Made by a program: the position numbers and the translations under genes
Shown: in pieces, positions 22,801-36,684 of the stretch
Layout: every line of letters begins with the position of its first letter
Numbering within the stretch: the stretch's first letter is position 1
Source: a virus
Length of the DNA stretch: 46,853 bases
Reading direction: 5' to 3' (one strand)
Virus record (IMG/VR): IMGVR_UViG_3300032954_000028
Location: 1-46,853 of that record
Notes under the pieces: model-generated
What the model was told of the DNA's origin: nothing
The model's database searches: none
What the model saw: only the letters and a program-made list of their open reading frames with translations

Positions 22801-25800
22801 ATGAGCCGCACCTCCGGGGTCCTCGCCGCGATGAAAGCAGTACCCGGCGGCGGCCGGCCCACCCCCGCGCCACAGGCGAGCGGCTGGGGGAGCATCAACC
22901 AGGTCGCCGCCAACGCGATGTGGGGCAACCCGCACGCGGCGGCCAGCGGCTACGGCCCGTTCCTCCCGCGCCCCTCCAGGGTGTTCACCGACGGCGCGTT
23001 CGGGCCGATGGACCCGATCCAGCCCGTCCCGGTCGACGTCCCCCCCCTGGGCGGAGAGTTCCCCGACCCCCGCTGGTGGCAGTACCGTGTCGGCTGGAAC
23101 CTCCCCACCCAGCCCGGCACCGAAGGTCTCAAGCTCGCCTCCTTTGACCAGCTGTACACCCTTGCCAACAAGTACTCCGTCGCCCGCAGGTGCATCGAGC
23201 TCCGCAAAGAGGAGATCCGCGGCCTGGAGTGGTCGATCGACCTGACCACCCAGGCAGCGAAGGCGTACCAGGGCGACCACAAGGCGATGAAGGACTTCGG
23301 GGAACGCGCCGCGCTGGCCACGCGGTTCTTCCGCCACCCGGACCCGGATTTCTTCTCGTTCGGGATGTTCCTCGACGCGCTGCTCGAGGAGATCTTCGTC
23401 TACGACGCCTTGTGCCTGATCTTCCGGCCCAAGTACGGCAAGGGCCTGGGGCTGGGGCTGCTGGGATCTGACCTGGATTCCATGCGCTTGGTTTCAGGGC
23501 CCACAGTCCGCCCGCTGCTGGACATGCACGGCGGCAAGCCCCGGCCGCCCGCGCCCGCCTACCAGCAGTTCCTTTTCGGGGTACCCCGCAGCGACTACCA
23601 GACAGTCATCTCCGGTTCCGACATCGACGACTACGGTCTTACCGGCGCGGAGGTTAACGCGTTCCGGGCCGACACGATGCTGTACGCCCCGCTGGTCACC
23701 CGCCGCGAGACCCCCTACGGGTTCCCGCCGGTCGAGCAGGCGCTCCTCCCGATCATCTCCGGGTTGCAGAAGCAGGAGTACCAGCTCAGCTACTACACCG
23801 AGGGCACCGTCCCGGCGGTGTATATCTCGCCGGGCGACCCGAACATGACTCCGACTCAGGTCCGTGAGCTGCAGGATGCTCTCAACGGCATGGCAGGGGA
23901 CCCCGCCTACCACCTGAAGGTAATCGTCCTCCCACCCGGCTCGAAGGTCGAGCCGCAGCGCCCGGTGGACCTCGCGGACACCTTCGACACGCTCGTGCAA
24001 ACCCAGGTCTGCATGGCGTTCGACGTGACCCCGGAGGAACTGGGGCTGCTCCCCAGCGTCGGCAGTCCCGGGGCGGGCGGCGGGACGAACGCCTCAGCGC
24101 TGCGGTTCGGCGCAGCCGGCCGGGACCCGAAGACCCGCAAGTCCACCAAGCCGCTGCTGCTGTTCCTCACCGACATCTTCAACTACGTCCTGCAGGACAT
24201 CTGCGGCCAGCCGGACATGCAGTTCTCCTTCGAGGGCCTGGTCGATGACGAGGACAAGCAGGCCATCACCGAACTGGGCGTCCAGCAGGTGCAGAACGGC
24301 ATCGCGTCGATCGACGAGGTGCGGGAGCGGCTGGACATGCCCCCGTGGGGCCTCCAGGAGACCTCCGAGCCGGTCGTGTTCACCGCGCAGGGGCCGATCC
24401 CGTTCAGCCTCGCCCCGCAGCTCATCGCGAACATGCAGGCGGGCGGCGCGGGCGGCCAGGGCACGAACGGCGGCCAGCGCACCACGTCATCGCGGTCCCG
24501 GACGAACCAGCCGAGCGTGCGCCGCGGGGGCCAGACGAAGCCCAACGGCAGCCACGAGCCCCCCCTAGCCCCGCACCGGGAGGCCGCAACCCCGGGCCAT
24601 TCCGCCGCGGCGGGCGCGATCCAGTCACCCACGCCCCGCACCGGAGGGACCACCTCCCGCTCGTCCGTGGCCGGGTCCCGTAAGAAGGCCATCGAATCCG
24701 AGCTGGGCGCGCTGAAGCGGCACCTGCGGAAGGGCCGGCTGATCTCCACGTGGATCGCCGAGCACATCCCGGAACGGGCCCTGGGGATGATCGCGGAGGA
24801 TGTCGCGAAGGGTGTCCTGCTGGATGTCGCTGTCGAGCGGGCCGGGGATATCTGCCTCAACGGTGATGCTACATTCGGGGTGACCGGGCCGCCCCTGGGC
24901 GTGTCTGGCGACGAGTCCATGACGGCCGGCCCGGTCAGCCTGCACAAGGCCGCCGGGCACTGGCCCGGCTGGGAACGGGACCTCGGTCTCGTCGGACGGT
25001 ACAAGCAGCAGATCTCCCAGGCGTTCCACGACGCGGAGGCGCGCGGTTCGGACTTGCGGAAGAAAGCCGCCACCGGGGCCATGTTCGTGTCCAACGCGAC
25101 GCTGCGGGACCTGATCTCCGATGAGGTCCGCGACGTCTTCTCCGACGCCCTCACGCCCCTGTGGACGCACGCGTGGAACCTCGGGTACGCCTCAGCCAAG
25201 GCCCTCGTCACGGGACAGCCTGCCGACTTCGCCGCCAAGCATGACGGCGAGGCGCTGGCCGGGTTCATCGGCACCGAGGGCGAGCACTGGCTGTCCCAGA
25301 TCGCCCGCACCGGCCTGGGGAACAACAGCGCCCGGTCTGAGCTCATCGCCCGCACCGAGGTAGCCAGGGCGATCAACAGCGCGGCCATCCAGTGCTACCG
25401 GGACCACGGCGTCACCCACAAGCACCTGCTGCTGTCGCCGGGCGCGTGCGACCTGTGCAAGGACGCGGCCGATGACGGGGTTGTCGCCCTCGATGCGCCT
25501 TTCTCCAGCGGCGGCGTCCTGGGCCTCTCGCATCCGGCGTGCAGGTGCTGCCCAGGGCCGGCTGGGGTCATGACCGAGCCGCCGCTCGCGGACCTTGGCA
25601 AGCACCAGTTCTTCGGCGAGCGGGAAGCCTGCATCGAATGCGGCCTCACCAAGGAAGCCCACGGTGCGGCCGATGACGACTCCCGGCTCGTGTGGCTGCT
25701 GCTCCGCGCCCGCGACGAGGACGGCAAGTGGCGGTTCCTCCTCCAGCAGCGCCCGGACGGCACGTGGGGGATGCCGGGCGGGAAACCGCACGTGGGTGAG

Positions 25801-27303
25801 GACGCGTGGGCCGCGGCGCTGCGGGAAACCGCCGAGGAGATCGGCCAGTTCCCCCCGCCGAGGATCGCCGGGACGTTCCATCACGTCGAGGACGACGGCA
25901 AGACCCAGGTGTACCTGTGGCTGTGCGACGTCCCGTACTTCCACCCGACCCTGGACGGGGCCACCCCCGAGGAAACCAAGGGTGTCGCGTGGCTCCGCCG
26001 CAAGGAAATCGCCGGCCTGAACCTGGCCCCCAAGTTCCGGGAGGACTGGGAGAAAGGCATCTGCCTGCGGGAGCACGTCACCAAGGGCCTCCAGCGGACG
26101 GTGAACGAGAACGGGGAAATCCTCGAACTCACCCCGGCCTCACAGCGCCTCCAGGCGACCGGCGCGCGCTGGCCGTACCCGCACAGGGCCGACGGCGCGG
26201 AATGGCCTGACGCCGGCCCTGGAGCCGTCCCGGACGAGCACGGGAGCGCGGGCGGGGAACCCCCGCACTGGAACGACGACATGGCCGAACCCGAGCCGCG
26301 CGACACGCTCGAGCCCAGGGGCGGCGACGACGGGACGATGCCGCGCGGGCGCAAGCCGAATCCTCCCGCCTCCCGGTTCCCGGACCAGGGCGGCGAGGAC
26401 GACGGCGCGTGGCCGTACCCGCAGACGACGCTCACCCCCGGAGCCTCCACCGTCGGTGCTCCCAAGAGCGGCGGGAACGACTCCGGTCACCCGGTAGTCG
26501 GGTCCGTCCCGGCGAAGACCCCGAAGCCGTACCGGCCGCACGCGGTCGCGCCCGAGGTGTTCGACCCGGCTGAGGCGGTCGAGGACTGGAGCCCGGAAGC
26601 GGACTCCGATGTCGTTCACGACGTCGGCAAGGGCGCAGGCGACTACCGGGACGCCAACCCGGTCGACCCGGAGCACATCCTTTCGATAATGCGGGCTAAC
26701 TTCCCGGAATCTGCCCTTTCCTGGGTGAAGCGGGCTGCATGGACGGGCCCTCAGATGGTCCCGTGGGACCGGATTGACCACGACGACGAGGCGAAATGGG
26801 CTGCCGCGCACCAGCCGGCGAAGGTCCGCGAGTTCGTCCGGGATATCAAGGCGGGCAGGAAGACGAACCCGTCGATCCTGTTCCAGCCTCCGGGTGACGG
26901 CAAGGTCATCGTTTCCGACGGGCATCACCGGGCCGTTGCCCGGCACTCCATGGGGCAGGATGTCCTCGCCTACGTCGGCCACATCCAGGCGCGGGACCGC
27001 GAGGCGGCCGAGCAGACGCACTCGTTCCAGTTCCACAGCGGGAGCGACCCGGCAAACAAGGGCGGCAACGCCGAGACGCTGCGCGAGTACTGGACGCACG
27101 AAGCTCACGGCGGCCCGACAGACTTCGCCTACGCCGACGAAATCGCCTGGGGAACCCCCGGTGACTTCATGCGCGCGGTCAATCTGCTGAAAGAGCACGC
27201 GCACATGACCGACGAGCAGGCCAAGGGCTATGCAAACCTTATGCACCACCGGGCGCTCGGCTACTGGCCCGCTCAGCACGCGGAGATGGAGCGGGGCAAG
27301 TAG
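22801..27303 (+). CDS. portal protein fused to MuF-like, Nudix and ParB-like domains (1500 aa)
   Basis: ATG 22801 follows GGGCGGGGGG. Residues about 90-545 are the portal (YSVARRCIELRKEEIRGLEW, ETPYGFPPVEQAL, AFDVTPEELGLLPS). A Ser/Pro/Gly linker leads to a MuF-type minor head region (about 625-915) with LIARTEVARAINSAAIQCYR and the CDLCKDA (883-889)...HPACRCC cysteines. Residues about 955-1090 form a Nudix hydrolase; the box runs 994-1016 with Gly994, Glu1000 and REtaEEiG (1008-1015). A linker follows, then a ParB/Srx-like domain with MVPWDRID and SDGHHRAVARH (Asp1373-Arg1377). Portal-MuF fusions are known in actinophages; the Nudix and ParB-like additions are unusual. Each capsid would carry about twelve copies. 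Confidence 0.88.
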   Translation: MSRTSGVLAAMKAVPGGGRPTPAPQASGWGSINQVAANAMWGNPHAAASGYGPFLPRPSRVFTDGAFGPMDPIQPVPVDVPPLGGEFPDPRWWQYRVGWNLPTQPGTEGLKLASFDQLYTLANKYSVARRCIELRKEEIRGLEWSIDLTTQAAKAYQGDHKAMKDFGERAALATRFFRHPDPDFFSFGMFLDALLEEIFVYDALCLIFRPKYGKGLGLGLLGSDLDSMRLVSGPTVRPLLDMHGGKPRPPAPAYQQFLFGVPRSDYQTVISGSDIDDYGLTGAEVNAFRADTMLYAPLVTRRETPYGFPPVEQALLPIISGLQKQEYQLSYYTEGTVPAVYISPGDPNMTPTQVRELQDALNGMAGDPAYHLKVIVLPPGSKVEPQRPVDLADTFDTLVQTQVCMAFDVTPEELGLLPSVGSPGAGGGTNASALRFGAAGRDPKTRKSTKPLLLFLTDIFNYVLQDICGQPDMQFSFEGLVDDEDKQAITELGVQQVQNGIASIDEVRERLDMPPWGLQETSEPVVFTAQGPIPFSLAPQLIANMQAGGAGGQGTNGGQRTTSSRSRTNQPSVRRGGQTKPNGSHEPPLAPHREAATPGHSAAAGAIQSPTPRTGGTTSRSSVAGSRKKAIESELGALKRHLRKGRLISTWIAEHIPERALGMIAEDVAKGVLLDVAVERAGDICLNGDATFGVTGPPLGVSGDESMTAGPVSLHKAAGHWPGWERDLGLVGRYKQQISQAFHDAEARGSDLRKKAATGAMFVSNATLRDLISDEVRDVFSDALTPLWTHAWNLGYASAKALVTGQPADFAAKHDGEALAGFIGTEGEHWLSQIARTGLGNNSARSELIARTEVARAINSAAIQCYRDHGVTHKHLLLSPGACDLCKDAADDGVVALDAPFSSGGVLGLSHPACRCCPGPAGVMTEPPLADLGKHQFFGEREACIECGLTKEAHGAADDDSRLVWLLLRARDEDGKWRFLLQQRPDGTWGMPGGKPHVGEDAWAAALRETAEEIGQFPPPRIAGTFHHVEDDGKTQVYLWLCDVPYFHPTLDGATPEETKGVAWLRRKEIAGLNLAPKFREDWEKGICLREHVTKGLQRTVNENGEILELTPASQRLQATGARWPYPHRADGAEWPDAGPGAVPDEHGSAGGEPPHWNDDMAEPEPRDTLEPRGGDDGTMPRGRKPNPPASRFPDQGGEDDGAWPYPQTTLTPGASTVGAPKSGGNDSGHPVVGSVPAKTPKPYRPHAVAPEVFDPAEAVEDWSPEADSDVVHDVGKGAGDYRDANPVDPEHILSIMRANFPESALSWVKRAAWTGPQMVPWDRIDHDDEAKWAAAHQPAKVREFVRDIKAGRKTNPSILFQPPGDGKVIVSDGHHRAVARHSMGQDVLAYVGHIQARDREAAEQTHSFQFHSGSDPANKGGNAETLREYWTHEAHGGPTDFAYADEIAWGTPGDFMRAVNLLKEHAHMTDEQAKGYANLMHHRALGYWPAQHAEMERGK

Positions 27304-31329: not shown

Positions 31330-34300
31330 GTGGCAGTAACACTCGACAACGACGAGGCGCTACCAGCCCCTCAGATGGGCGCCGCCCAGGGTGGCGCCGC
31401 TAACGCCCTCGCAGCCCGCGAAGCCCGCCGCAACACCCGCTACGCCGACATGTTCACCGGCAAGGCCAAGGGCCTCGTCAAGGGCGTCGGCCACGTCATC
31501 AACAACGGCGTCCCCCTCTCCGAAGCCACCCACGGCGCGGAGATCATGACCCGCCAGCACGACACCATCACCAAGACCCGCGCCGCCACCATCGACGGCG
31601 CATGGAACACCGACGACGTAACCGCCGGGATCTCCAACGAGTTCTGGGGCCACCCCCGCGCCGGAGCCATGAAGTTCATGGCCCAGCGCGACAGCATGGT
31701 CCGCAAGAACTTCACCGCCACGAACCTGGGCGGGTCCGGCGCTCCATACGGCCTCGTGCCGTTCGATTTGCTAGCGCCTTAGAACGCTAGGGCCTGCATG
31801 TTGCGAAACATGCAGCAAACCCCGCTGTTCGGCGAAACTCCTTCGCACTATCCAGGGATCTGATTTATCTGGTATAGTGGTCATGTGGAAAACGCCGATG
31901 TCGTCCGGTACGTAGCCGGCCGGCGGTAGAGACTGAACGCGGGGTATCTGGTGGACTGGAGCAACCTCAAGGCGGACTACGAGCGCCTTGGCTCATACTC
32001 AGCCGTCGCCGCCGAATACGGCGTAACGAAGGCAGCCGTCGCACATCAGGCGAAGAAGCAGGGGATCAATCCCAAGCCAGAAGGCCGATCACTCAAGATC
32101 GACTGGAGCGACCTGCCGGACCTGTACGCCAGCGGCATGACCTACGAACAACTGGCAGCGCACTACGGATGCAGCATCCACGCCATCCAGAACGCGATAA
32201 AGCGACTGGACGTGAAGCCGCGGCCGACGGGCCTGCCGGAGGGTTACGAGTGGACGGACGAACGCCGGGCGGCTCACCGCGCGGCCATTGACCGTCCCGA
32301 GTGGCGAGCCAAGATGCGCGAGAACTTGCTGCAGCGCCTCCCTGAAATGCGGGGGCCGTCAGCAAACTCGCCCCTTGAGAAACTGCTTCAGGCAGCACTC
32401 ATAAAGACCGGCATCAGCTTCTCGACGCAACGCGTCCTGCTGGGCCGGTACTGCGTAGACATCCTCATCGACCAAGCCCCGGTCATCATCGAGGCGGACG
32501 GCGCGTTCCACAACCTGCGCAAGAAGCAGGACGCGGAGCGGGACGTCGCGCTCACCGAGGCCGGGTACCGGGTCTTCCGGTTCACGGGCGCACCGATCAA
32601 CCGCGATGCCATGGGCTGCATTGCCGAGGTGGTCGCGGCGGTCGGGCTTACGCCCGACGCCAACCCGGTGGCCGACATCCGCACCGGGATGATGGGACCG
32701 GAGAACCCGAACTGGAACGGCGGCAAGCGCACCGTCACCTGCGCCCACTGCGGCGCAGAGAGCAAGCGTAACGCCTTCCAGACCCAGTGGAAGAGGACGT
32801 TCTGCAACCAGAAGTGCTACGGGGCGTGGTTGCGCGCCCATCCCGAGGAGAGCAGCCGCAGGAAGTGGGCGGACGCCCGTCGCGCGGCTCTCCAGGAAAG
32901 CCAGATAGTGTCACAGTCCGAGCCTGCGTGAGAACGTAGGAGCTACCCGGAAACGAGGTAGCCCGGCTGACGGGGCCGGTAACAAATCTGTCGCGCTTGA
33001 TCTACCCCGTCTACACCCTTTTCCGCAACAAGTTCCCCCGCCCGGCGGGCCAGGGCGCTTCGCGGCAGGTGTACGGCCTCCTGGGCATCTCCGGCTCCCA
33101 GACCGGCGGACAGGGTGTCATCGACATCTCCATCCCGGAACTCGTCTCGTCCGGCCAGACTGGAATCTCCAGCACCTGGCCGCTGAACATCCCCGGCTCG
33201 GGCAAGCAAACCGAGTACAAGCTCAACGTGCCTTCCATGAACTAGGTAGGGCACGCTAAACCGCGAGAATTGCTGGAAAGCCCGCGCCACCCGCACTCAC
33301 CACAGCGTGGCCCGAAAGGGCGAGCGCGACGGTTCGAGAAGAGTGCGGCAGGGGTAATCAGCAGCCGAGGGCCTAAAGGCGACACGCCCAGGGTCAAGGT
33401 TCAGAGACTCGGCACGCGGGATCTGGTGGTAGTAGAATCTTAATGTGGCGAGGATTAAAGGTCAGAAACCTCTGACCACCGCTGAGAAGCAGGAAATCGC
33501 ACAACAGTACGAAGCCGGCGAAGTGCTGGAAGCGCTCATGGCCGAGTATCAGCGCGGCAAGCCGACGATCAAGCAGGTCATCGTGGACGCGGGCGGCACG
33601 ATCCGCCGCCGCGGGTACGCGACCGGCACCGAGTGGTCCCCGGAACGACGGGCGGCCCACAAGGCAGGCTGCAGCACCCCGGAGTTCGCGCAGAAGTCAC
33701 GCGAGGCGCTCTTGAAGCGCCTGCCGACCATGCGCGGGCCAGCGACCAACACGGCCATCGAACAGCGCATGCACGACGCGCTCAAGGCGGCCGGGATCGG
33801 CTTCACCACGCAATCCATCCTGCTAGAGCGTTACCTGGTGGACATCGAGCTTCATCAGGCTCCCATCGTCATAGAGGCAGACGGAGCGCAGCATACGCTG
33901 CGCCTCCAGAAAGCCAAGGACGCACTGCGCGACGCCGAACTCACCACTGCCGGCTACCGGGTCTTCCGGTTCACCGGCAGCGAGATCAACACCGACGCCG
34001 TTGCCTGCGTCCAGCGCGTGATCGACACCTGCGGGCTGGTGCCCGATCAGGATCCGGTCTATGAGATCCGCACCCGGTTCTCAGGCGAACTCCACCCGCT
34101 CTGGAAGGGCGGCAAACAGGAGTACACCTGCGAAAACCCGTCGTGCGGGAAGACGTTCCTTGCTCAGCCGAAGCACCGGACAGGCAAGCACGTCTACTGC
34201 AGCAAGAAGTGCTACGGCAAGGGCAAGGCCGGGGTCAAGCTCGGCCCGATGCCTGCCGAGCAGCGCGCAAAGATCGGCGCCGCCAACCGGCGCAACCACC

Positions 34301-36684
34301 AGACCAAGGTAGAGTCCGACCTGCGCGGAGACGCGCAGAGGGCGGCGGAAACGACCGCCCCCGCCACTCTGTTTTGAGCGGCGAGTAACAACAAGTACCG
34401 CTTCTTCGGACTGTCCGAATCCCTCAGCTGGCTCGCCCAGTTCGAGGGTCAGGGCTTCGAGGACCTGTCAGCGCTGGCCAACCTGGTCCTGCTGCAGGAA
34501 ATGATGCTCGGTTGGTGAATCCTTGCCGAGCCTAAACCGCGAGAATTGCTGGAACAGCCGAGTCACCTGCCAGCGCCACAGCGTGAGCCGAAAGGCTGAG
34601 CGCGATGGCTTGAGAAGCCTGGCAGCCGAGGGCCAATCAGCAGCCGAGCGGGCCTGGTCGCAGCCAGCGGCCGACCCGATGGTTCAGAGACTATGCACGC
34701 GGCACCGCAACCAGCGGCGAAGATAGAGTCCAGCCCGCGCGAGAGCGCAGGGAGCAACTAGAGGAATACCAGCTCATCGCCGGCTCGTCGCAGAACCTTG
34801 CGGTCCCGGCCGCGCCGACCATCACCCAGCGTGTGGCCGGCTCGAACGAGACCGCCATCACGGGCGGCGGCACCCACTTCTCCGTCCTGATCACGGCGCT
34901 GAACTACTTCGGCGAGACCGCGGCAGGGACGGCCACCGCGGACACCCCGCTGACTTCCGGTAACGTCGTGGACCTGACGTGGACCGCGATCCCGGGGGCG
35001 CAGCAGTACAACATCTACGTCTCCACCAACGCGACTGCGGGGACGAACGCGTACCTGCACGTGGGCACGTCGGTCCAGTCCGGCACCACGTACACGGGCA
35101 AGCAGTCCTCGAACGCGGCCGGCGGGGTGAAGTACACCCTCCAGGGTGCCGTGGCCACCAGCACGAACGGCACGGCGCCGACCTCCGACAGCGGGACGGG
35201 CGGGAACAACCGGCTGGAGGGGCTCATCCCCACCCTGTCCGGGCTGTCCTGCACCGGCACGGGCCCCTACTCGCAGGTGGGGTTCGAGTCGCAGAACGTG
35301 TGGAAGGGCGGCTACATCAACCAGAACGTCGGCACCCATTTGTCGACGAATGCCATTTTCACAGCCCTCGACGGCTTGTGGGAGAATAATGGCATGAATA
35401 ATGTCACGCCCGGCGTTTACAGGGCGGACCCGAGCGAAATCGTCGCTGATGGTGGCGACCTTATGCGCTTGGCGAACGACATTCTTTCCCAGGGTGCGGG
35501 ATTGAATTACCTCCTCAACATCTCCCAGGACCAGCTGTCCGGCGTCCGCGCCGGCGCGGCGGTGGCCGAGTTCGTCAACCCGGTCACCAGGTCCACGCTG
35601 AAGCTGACGGTGCACCCCTGGATGTCGCAGGGCACCGCGCTGCTGATGTCGTACCAGCTCCCGCAGACGTGGAGCCACGTGGACAACGCGTGGGAGATGA
35701 CCTGCGTCCAGGATTACGTCAATTTGGCGCCACGGCAGGGTGACCTGCCGATGGGATCCGCACTGCCCGGGGAATGCCGCCAGTCCAGGCAAATCCCGGT
35801 CACCTCAGATGCCCTGAGGTGCGTAGAGACTGTACGTGCGGGCTCTGTGTCACGAACCCCGCTGCGGGGCATTGCGCAGCGAGGGCCAGCAGAGCGAGAG
35901 ACAGTCCGGTCCTGCGGGATGGTAAACCGCAGGAGGACGGCAGAAATGACCGTCCCGCTCGCTGCCTGATGGCGGCGAGAGGTAACAGGATGCAGCGTTG
36001 CCTGGCCAGTGATCGACGCAACCTTCCGCTACTCCATCAGCCTTAACTAGGTGGCGCGGCAGGGTGACCTGCCGTGGAAAACGGACCCCGATCGGGGAAG
36101 CCCGGCTGTTCAAGAGGGTAATCCCGAGCGCTGACGATGCCCGTCGGCGTGTAGAGACTGCATGGGTCTGGATCTCTGTCATGGAAGCAACCCGAGGGCA
36201 TTATCGGGTGGCGGCCGGAGATCGTGGGACAGTCCGATCTGCACCAACCAGCGAAGGTGCAGAACCGCACAGAAATGATGCGGTCGCGCTGGCTGCGGCC
36301 AGCGGGGTAACAGAAATGCTTCCTGCTGGGCACCCTGGTGGCTCACGCCCCGTTCTACTCGGGCATCCTCCAGGGACTCCAGGTCAGCGACGTCACGCCG
36401 TCAGTTAACTGAGGCGGCCCTGCGGAGCGATCCGCAGGTGAATAACGGCACTGTTCGGGGAACCCCGGCTGTCAACAGGGGAATCCCGAGCCACGGCGAT
36501 GCCTGCCGTGGTGTAGAGACCGTATGTGCTGGGTCTGTCATGGACGGACGCTCAAGGCATCATGAGCGGCCGGCCGCAGACCATGAGACGGTCCGGCCTG
36601 CACCAACCAGCGAAGGTGCAGAGGCCAGCGGAAACGACTGGCCCGCCCGCCCCCGTGGCGGGAGGTAACAGCAACGACTCGTGA
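31330..36684 (+). CDS. major capsid protein, seven exons split by six group I introns
   Basis: HK97-type major capsid protein. Proposed exons: 31330-31779, 32991-33233, 34396-34512, 34764-35719, 35993-36037, 36319-36401, 36677-36684. They join in frame to 633 residues. GTG 31330 follows GGGAGA. The joins read LLAP/SRLIYPVYTLF, NVP/YRFFGLSESL, MMLG/EYQLIAGS, QDYV/SVAWPVIDATF, RYSI/FLLGTLVAH and VTPY/S-stop, continuous capsid sequence with no missing or extra residues. Exon 4 holds an Ig/Fn3-like insertion (about residues 283-390). Without splicing each fragment ends at a stop. Exon boundaries are set by P1 pairing, the terminal G of each intron and protein continuity; the exon 3/4 and 4/5 junctions are the least certain. 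Confidence 0.85.
31873..31929 (+). promoter_or_regulatory. possible intron-internal promoter and 14-codon leader
   Basis: TATAGT (31873-31878) lies 6 nt before GTG 31885, which opens a 14-codon frame ending in TAG at 31929. The homing endonuclease starts 22 nt later. This may give separate expression of the endonuclease. Confidence 0.35.
31951..32931 (+). CDS. intron-encoded homing endonuclease, Vsr/EDxHD-like (326 aa)
   Basis: N-terminal segments (AVAAEYGVTKAAVAHQAKKQ and YEQLAAHYGCSIHAIQNAIK) are two HTH units. The nuclease core has VDILIDQAPVIIEADGAFH with Glu181, Asp183 and His187, then RKKQDAERDVALTEAGYRVF, matching DUF559/Vsr-like nucleases and the EDxHD homing family. A C-terminal Cys pair set (CAHCGAE...CNQKCYG) looks like a zinc finger for DNA binding. 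It should cut the intronless capsid gene at the intron 1 site. The P7 3' strand of the intron lies inside its last codons. Confidence 0.83.
   Translation: MDWSNLKADYERLGSYSAVAAEYGVTKAAVAHQAKKQGINPKPEGRSLKIDWSDLPDLYASGMTYEQLAAHYGCSIHAIQNAIKRLDVKPRPTGLPEGYEWTDERRAAHRAAIDRPEWRAKMRENLLQRLPEMRGPSANSPLEKLLQAALIKTGISFSTQRVLLGRYCVDILIDQAPVIIEADGAFHNLRKKQDAERDVALTEAGYRVFRFTGAPINRDAMGCIAEVVAAVGLTPDANPVADIRTGMMGPENPNWNGGKRTVTCAHCGAESKRNAFQTQWKRTFCNQKCYGAWLRAHPEESSRRKWADARRAALQESQIVSQSEPA
33433..33438 (+). promoter_or_regulatory. -10 element of the intron 2 endonuclease gene
   Basis: TAGAAT lies 6 nt before GTG 33445 and fits the window-wide leaderless pattern. No good -35 is visible. Confidence 0.45.
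33445..34377 (+). CDS. intron-encoded homing endonuclease, Vsr/EDxHD-like (310 aa)
   Basis: Paralogue of the 31951 enzyme. It opens with a basic HTH-like helix (TTAEKQEIAQQYEAGEVLEA). The core has VDIELHQAPIVIEADGAQH with Glu144, Asp146 and His150, then LRDAELTTAGYRVFRFTGSE. The C-terminal zinc motif is CENPSCGKTF...YCSKKCYGKG. GTG 33445 has no Shine-Dalgarno site but TAGAAT is 6 nt upstream. The gene sits in a loop of intron 2 and its tail overlaps the conserved S element, so intron folding and gene sequence constrain each other. Confidence 0.83.
   Translation: MARIKGQKPLTTAEKQEIAQQYEAGEVLEALMAEYQRGKPTIKQVIVDAGGTIRRRGYATGTEWSPERRAAHKAGCSTPEFAQKSREALLKRLPTMRGPATNTAIEQRMHDALKAAGIGFTTQSILLERYLVDIELHQAPIVIEADGAQHTLRLQKAKDALRDAELTTAGYRVFRFTGSEINTDAVACVQRVIDTCGLVPDQDPVYEIRTRFSGELHPLWKGGKQEYTCENPSCGKTFLAQPKHRTGKHVYCSKKCYGKGKAGVKLGPMPAEQRAKIGAANRRNHQTKVESDLRGDAQRAAETTAPATLF
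34513..34763 (+). ncRNA. group I intron 3 (no ORF)
   Basis: 251 nt. The 5' exon ends GCTCGGT, pairing over 7 bp with GCCGAGC (P1, U-G). P and Q elements GAATTGCTGGAA and AATCAGCAGCC match intron 2. R is GTTCAGAGACT and S is AGATAGAGTCC (34722-34732). It ends AGCAACTAGAG; the last G is placed at 34763 by the terminal-G rule, though a 3-nt shift would also keep frame. Confidence 0.82.
35720..35992 (+). ncRNA. group I intron 4 (no ORF)
   Basis: 273 nt. A 7-bp hairpin with a GTGA tetraloop (CGGCAGG/CCTGCCG) is P2-like. P7 is GACTGT (35828-35833) with ACAGTC (35901-35906). It ends GTAACAGGATG at 35992. The 5' site after ACGT is chosen by protein continuity (QDYV/SVAWPVID) and similarity to introns 5 and 6; P1 is weak here (CGT with GCG), so this boundary could shift by a few nt. 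Confidence 0.72.
36038..36318 (+). ncRNA. group I intron 5 (no ORF)
   Basis: 281 nt. The 5' exon ends CCAT and pairs with GTGG (U-G). It carries the same CGGCAGG-GTGA-CCTGCCG hairpin as intron 4. P7 is GACTG (36156-36160) with CAGTC (36230-36234). A hairpin at 36239-36262 is identical to one in intron 6. It ends GTAACAGAAATG at 36318. Confidence 0.8.
36239..36621 (+). repeat. identical 24-nt hairpin in introns 5 and 6
   Basis: CTGCACC, a 10-nt loop and GGTGCAG occur at 36239-36262 and again, identical throughout, at 36598-36621. It is probably a P9-type peripheral stem shared by the two related introns. Confidence 0.75.
36402..36676 (+). ncRNA. group I intron 6 (no ORF)
   Basis: 275 nt. The 5' exon ends GCCGT, pairing with GCGGC (U-G). 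The P2-like stem is CTGCGG/CCGCAG. P7 is GACCGT (36518-36523) with ACGGTC (36588-36593), a compensatory change relative to introns 4 and 5. The stem at 36598-36621 repeats that of intron 5. It ends GTAACAGCAACG at 36676, followed by the last 8 coding nt. Confidence 0.82.

Follow-up and report, generated by a model that had tools for sequence, protein, structure and literature searches.

Related Vsr-like homing endonuclease genes in the P8 loops of two unlike group I introns of a phage capsid-like gene

Introduction

Several described systems combine a homing endonuclease gene (HEG) with a phage intron in ways that resemble the locus reported here. I-Bth0305I, an EDxHD homing endonuclease (PDB 3r3p), has a catalytic domain coupled to additional DNA-binding modules, according to the available part of its description (PMC3943268). 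In the T4 td intron, the I-TevI open reading frame contributes with its 3′ end a portion of the ribozyme core that includes P7, and the core-creep hypothesis (Edgell et al. 2011) predicts a core extension of variable length, as given in the accessible text of the same source (PMC3073962). VSR-domain HEGs occur in terminase introns of Bastillevirinae, where the portion of the report at hand also mentions an overlap between a nuclease gene and intron elements (PMC11878797). The major capsid gene of mycobacteriophage LittleE carries a group I-like intron with a HEG, as summarized in the excerpted record (PMC3706429). In an RNA polymerase gene system, the same broad nuclease type is found in unlike intron ribozymes of one host gene, so far as its partial description goes.

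The present locus lies in a window of 46,853 bases, an IMG/VR virus record, and includes a major-capsid-like gene with two HEGs, termed HEG1 and HEG2. The predicted model of HEG1 has the same nuclease fold as I-Bth0305I, and in both systems extra DNA-binding modules stand beside the catalytic domain, as far as the I-Bth0305I source describes them; unlike I-Bth0305I, HEG1 and HEG2 match DUF559, carry HTH-like segments and a zinc finger, and have a capsid gene as host. The HEGs share with I-TevI, as partly described, an open reading frame whose 3′ end supplies ribozyme core; I-TevI is a GIY-YIG enzyme encoded in P6, whereas HEG1 and HEG2 are Vsr-like, sit in P8, and have an overlap that can reach through P9 and P9.1. 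The likeness to the Bastillevirinae genes consists in Vsr-superfamily nucleases within phage group I introns, but the gene and the phages are different, and six introns in one capsid gene are unmentioned in the available portion of that report. The nucleases of the RNA polymerase gene system have CapR-like DNA-binding domains in its partial description, in contrast to the HTH-like segments, zinc finger and capsid host gene seen here. LittleE, in the record at hand, has one intron with a HEG of another family on the opposite strand, whereas the capsid-like gene here has six.

Results

The capsid-like gene (31330-36684, + strand) lies downstream of portal-like and head-protease-like genes, and its assignment as a probable major capsid gene rests on this position together with the conserved family. 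No capsid-named profile matched its exons; exon 4 matches phrog_13692, a family of unknown function, and among cultured phages a distant capsid match was found in one Thermoanaerobacterium phage (two records). A separate open reading frame of 1500 residues (22801-27303) has matches to portal, Mu F-like head morphogenesis (weak) and NUDIX models.

Six putative introns, all of which would be self-splicing, interrupt the capsid-like gene, with boundaries set by comparison with intronless homologues (Table 1). Joining the exons gives one intact protein with the C-terminus ..DVTPYS. The 5′ exon ends in U at six of six introns and the intron ends in G in five of six, the end of intron 3 being uncertain: an end at 34760 keeps the frame exact and has no terminal G, and an end at 34754 provides the G and adds Gln-Leu to the capsid protein. 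Two further details concern the 3′ part of the gene. No stop codon follows closely on the 5′ splice site of intron 4, and the unspliced capsid frame stays open to 35969; intron 6 leaves a final exon so short that it includes little beyond the stop codon.

Table 1. Features of the capsid-like gene, its putative introns and the two HEGs, in window coordinates
Feature	Coordinates	Strand	Description
Exon 1	31330..31779	+	GTG start, ends ..GCGCCT; tblastn to intronless homologues, join LLAP|SRL
Intron 1	31780..32990	+	Lineage A, carries HEG1; 5′ exon ends U, intron ends G
Intron 1 P7 5′ strand (R element)	31931..31935	+	GACTG; pairs with 32914-32918
Intron 1 P8 5′ strand	31945..31951	+	TATCTGG
HEG1	31951..32931	+	326 aa; HTH-like segments, DUF559/Vsr-like nuclease, zinc finger (Pfam and predicted fold)
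Intron 1 P8 3′ strand	32901..32907	+	CCAGATA; within HEG1
Intron 1 P7 3′ strand (S element)	32914..32918	+	CAGTC; within HEG1; stop codon begins 15 nt downstream
Exon 2	32991..33233	+	Intronless homologues
Intron 2	33234..34395	+	Lineage B (P5abc-like extension), carries HEG2
Intron 2 P7 5′ strand (R element)	33406..33410	+	GACTC; pairs with 34312-34316
Intron 2 P8 5′ strand	33420..33426	+	GATCTGG
HEG2	33445..34377	+	310 aa; HTH-like segment, DUF559/Vsr-like nuclease, zinc finger, P9/P9.1-encoded tail
Intron 2 P8 3′ strand	34299..34305	+	CCAGACC; within HEG2
Intron 2 P7 3′ strand (S element)	34312..34316	+	GAGTC; within HEG2; stop codon begins 63 nt downstream
Intron 2 helices P9 (34321-34338) and P9.1 (34340-34360)	34321..34360	+	Both translated as HEG2 tail; covariation
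Exon 3	34396..34512	+	Intronless homologues
Intron 3	34513..34760	+	Lineage B, without ORF, without 3′ domain; 3′ end uncertain
Exon 4	34761..35719	+	Intronless homologues
Intron 4	35720..35992	+	Without ORF, lineage A relative
Exon 5	35993..36037	+	45 nt; intronless homologues
Intron 5	36038..36318	+	Without ORF, lineage A relative
Exon 6	36319..36401	+	83 nt; intronless homologues
Intron 6	36402..36676	+	Without ORF, lineage A relative
Exon 7	36677..36684	+	8 nt including TGA stop; restores ..VTPYS

A search of viral contigs with exon 4 revealed 39 loci, the majority of them intronless. The capsid genes of L064, L065, L055 and L044 have four to six matches each to the intron 3′-half model described below, some at further sites; since L064 has six such matches in the same type of gene, the window is not alone. 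The capsid gene in this phage group is an intron hotspot. Misassembly was also considered. Contig L002 is identical to the window across 12,661 bases, but it perhaps comes from the same sample and is therefore not independent support for the assembly.

The Rfam group I model RF00028 gave no match across the window at its gathering score, which is a detection threshold and no property of the RNA; at a lax threshold, intron 3 reached 40.3 bits (cut-off 50) and intron 2 20.9 bits. Because the gathering score found nothing, we built our own covariance models. The 3′-half model (R1), trained on 34 introns from outside the window, found intron 1 (72.6 bits, E 2.4e-16), intron 2 (85.3 bits, E 1.6e-19) and introns 4, 5 and 6 (78.6, 69.8 and 77.4 bits), and gave merely 11.2 bits (E 0.53) on intron 3. 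The 5′ halves fall into two groups. A lineage A model (R2), made from 14 sequences without any window sequence and with L059 left out, scored 107 bits on intron 1 (E 4.4e-28), 66.2 bits on L059, and 39.3, 31.6 and 40.4 bits on introns 4, 5 and 6, respectively. A lineage B model (R3), made from 16 sequences and likewise free of window sequence, scored 175.2 bits on intron 2 (E 3.8e-48) and 155 bits on intron 3; it found neither intron 1 nor L059, and R2 and R3 gave no cross-hits. Intron 3 is peculiar in that its 5′ half is strong, yet the 3′ domain of the other five window introns is absent. The lineage B 5′ half has a P5abc-like extension with strong covariation, in which 98.2% of 656 cells are paired, and the introns with this extension may be of an IC-like subgroup. 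The ribozymes of introns 1 and 2 are thus of different lineages, and R2 and R3, which separate them, bear out the claim of an earlier note on this DNA that the two nucleases occupy introns of different lineages in the same gene.

HEG1 and HEG2 each sit in the P8 loop of a group I intron. The P7 pairing is exact in introns 1, 2, 4, 5 and 6, and P3 coordinates were placed for introns 1 and 2. Under an automatic rule, P7 was paired at all five positions in 43 of 52 introns with 11 strand combinations and so covaries in relatives; the rule left 9 of the 52 unpaired and matched one of the 43 (L065 5812) to the wrong R element. These 52 are the five window introns plus 47 of 52 3′-half hits, the five hits in L067-L069 being excluded.

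Both genes match Pfam DUF559 (E 9.3e-15 for HEG1 and 2.5e-14 for HEG2), and they share 45% identity within the matched stretch. The IEADGxxH core is present in each, as is a C-terminal stretch rich in Cys. A model of HEG1 was predicted from a 24-HEG alignment with a mean pLDDT of 85. Structural comparison of this model revealed I-Bth0305I (PDB 3r3p) as the best match, with a Z of 11.5 and 2.2 Å over 92 residues, followed by DUF559 3hrl (Z 11.1) and Vsr 1cw0 (Z 10.1). By sequence alone, the similarity of HEG1 and HEG2 to I-Bth0305I is barely detectable (E 0.5). Because these three structures match the predicted model, the label "Vsr-like" is right as to the modelled fold. The residues E143, D170, E181, D183, H187 and D194 are conserved in 9 or 10 of 10 alignment rows and may include the residues of the EDxHD motif. 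Among cultured phages, HEG1 found a single weak nuclease match and HEG2 none, and no relatives turned up when genome contigs (genome_contigs) were scanned with the HEG alignment. The DUF559 matches, the identity and the fold agree with the earlier reading of two open reading frames encoding paralogous Vsr-like nucleases, in both of which the proposed IEADGxxH core and C-terminal zinc finger are seen. Three relatives at another insertion site, SAL|ANL, have IEVTNSPGE (or PGQ) in place of the IEADGxxH core (L044:5854-6678, L065:4571-5458 and L070:2815-3723), and perhaps encode a conserved intron protein that has lost its nuclease activity, for instance one that helps in splicing.

A tree of 25 HEGs over 229 columns, with L062 included, revealed a HEG2 clade (support 99/100) consisting of nine HEGs of lineage-B introns and L059; the latter shares the NVP|YRF site but belongs to an intron of lineage A. 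On this tree, ribozyme lineage changes twice, against a shuffled mean of about 7.6, and none of 500 shuffles was as low. An AU test does not reject a clade of the nine lineage-B HEGs without L059 (p 0.18); L059 may thus fall outside the nine, so that only one lineage switch is firmly needed and the second is merely favoured. The P8 stem differs with the presence of the HEG. All nine HEG-bearing lineage-B introns have a CTGG/CCAG P8, compared to 1 of 11 HEG-less ones (p 1.2e-4, by a Fisher test that counts related introns as independent). The looser CTG/CAG form is present in 13 of 15 HEG-bearing lineage-A introns and in 8 of 10 HEG-less lineage A relatives. On the lineage-B 5′-half tree, which is poorly resolved, HEG presence is unsorted (5 changes, shuffled mean 6.7). 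The sole HEG-less lineage-B intron with a HEG-type P8, GTCTGG/CCAGAC, is that of L066 (2594-2660), and it is perhaps a remnant of a HEG deletion.

From these patterns we infer that HEG and P8 travelled together, and the P8 stems and the midpoint root make a direction from lineage A to lineage B the more likely one. The same distribution could in principle arise if the HEG had stayed in place while the ribozyme halves around it were swapped, the 5′ half being the one replaced. Such an exchange would suit the facts that the lineages differ most in their 5′ halves, that one 3′-half model (R1) finds both, and that HEG2-type genes occupy the same insertion site in both lineages. We consider it unlikely, as P8 accompanies the HEG and, in L059, not only the 5′ half is of lineage A but J8/7 and the P9 loop also look lineage-A-like by eye, which makes the HEG the odd part there. 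The earlier suggestion that the endonuclease gene moved between introns is thereby strengthened, with L059 within the HEG2 clade and P8 accompanying the gene as the evidence.

Insertion site changes seven times on the HEG tree for eight sites, which is the minimum; sites were assigned from reading the exon flanks and labelled for 24 of the 25 tree rows, L064_a being unlabelled. Monophyly of all site-1 HEGs is narrowly rejected in an AU test (p 0.042), which leaves the site count unchanged. One HEG clade per insertion site fits the expectation for HEGs each bound to its own DNA target and is consistent with homing, and it weighs against the view that the open reading frames are homing endonucleases no longer, being decayed genes or splicing helpers. 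Active-site loss does occur in this family, since the SAL|ANL-site genes (L044_b, L065_b and L070) have lost the core while keeping an open frame and a dN/dS of 0.17-0.23, but HEG1 and HEG2 retain E143, D170, E181, D183 and H187 of the family consensus, and for these two we regard the loss of nuclease function as distinctly improbable.

The S element, the 3′ strand of P7, lies within the coding sequence of both nucleases (32914-32918 in HEG1 and 34312-34316 in HEG2), just as the earlier note had stated. Its position varies among relatives. Of the 24 HEGs whose 3′ end is complete, 10 include S in the gene, two (L053 and L054) have S as their stop codon and 12 leave it outside; measured from S, the stop codon falls between -20 and +102 nt. 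Near-duplicates (L056, L067, L068 and L069) and L062, whose 3′ end is lost at the contig edge, were excluded from this count. The possibility that S would turn out to lie outside the gene at the true stop thus did not hold for HEG1 and HEG2 and did hold for half of the relatives. The orthologues of HEG1 that occupy its exon join (L044_a, L045_a and L046_a) terminate ahead of S, and possess a C-terminal HTH-like segment that HEG1 is without. On the HEG tree, the in/out state of S changes seven times, compared to 8.0 ± 1.2 in 300 shuffles, 99 of which were as low.

The overlap has a mechanical cause, in that a gene entering P8 in frame 0 meets no stop in J8/7: 10 HEGs in this frame read through S (12 with the two in which S is the stop codon), whereas 12 of 12 HEGs in the other P8 frames stop before S. 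For P9 and P9.1 of the 10 introns whose HEG reads through S, pairing holds in 150 of 150 cells, and 54 double changes are seen. The RNA helices thus persist as the amino acids that they encode vary, and the overlapping protein tail therefore looks like a passenger. The tail would be dispensable for the nuclease; orthologues without it exist. The overlap is easily gained and lost, and the earlier view of a gene locked to the RNA fold is not supported. A selected overlap, with nuclease tail and ribozyme core mutually dependent and the gene thereby locked to the RNA, is very improbable indeed: S is overlapped by the two genes of the window, W_H2 and L005_b share terminal residues and one reading frame is common to all 10 overlapping genes, but S is outside or is the stop codon in the relatives counted above, the site of HEG1 has orthologues that stop short of it, the overlap state has no phylogenetic signal, and the shared tail coincides with the most constrained RNA.

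Discussion

In our reading, which we hold to be quite probable, HEG1 and HEG2 are Vsr-like (EDxHD-type) HEGs in P8 of two unlike ribozymes, the HEG has spread with its P8 between lineages, and the overlap is core creep and no lock. Each HEG would presumably cleave an intronless capsid gene at the exon join where it is itself inserted, and repair of the cut would copy the intron into that gene. Tree and sequence support a spread of the HEG, together with its P8 stem, between the two ribozyme lineages. A gene that enters P8 in the one suitable frame would meet no stop until P9 or beyond, so that J8/7, P7 and P9 would be translated, and the ribozyme core would be carried as a passenger tail. A core extension of variable length, as core creep predicts, is present among the 24 HEGs. 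The overlap of HEG1 seems to have been gained by losing the C-terminal HTH segment and not by a single stop mutation, in which it differs from the published core-creep step.

The sources cited above, so far as available, already describe individually Vsr-like HEGs in phage introns, HEGs common to dissimilar introns, introns in capsid genes, and core overlap. The present case adds their combination, overlaps that form a graded series, a transfer linked to P8 and a phage capsid gene with six introns. A search of the open-licence literature, in the text that it covers, found no phage gene with six group I introns, which is weak evidence of absence.

Core overlap has been known from scattered cases, and testing core creep needs related genes with and without overlap. 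The HEG family described here offers 24 genes of this sort, every one situated in a P8 loop and some of them orthologues at a single insertion site, and one HEG type spans two ribozyme lineages at one target site. We tentatively propose, as a possibility that we would not yet rate as the probable one, that a HEG bounded by its own P8 is a cassette that may be transferred between unlike group I ribozymes, keeping its DNA target while the ribozyme changes, and that the capsid gene, with up to six introns, is the arena in which core overlap comes and goes repeatedly. If this is true, the family would offer a natural series for testing core creep.
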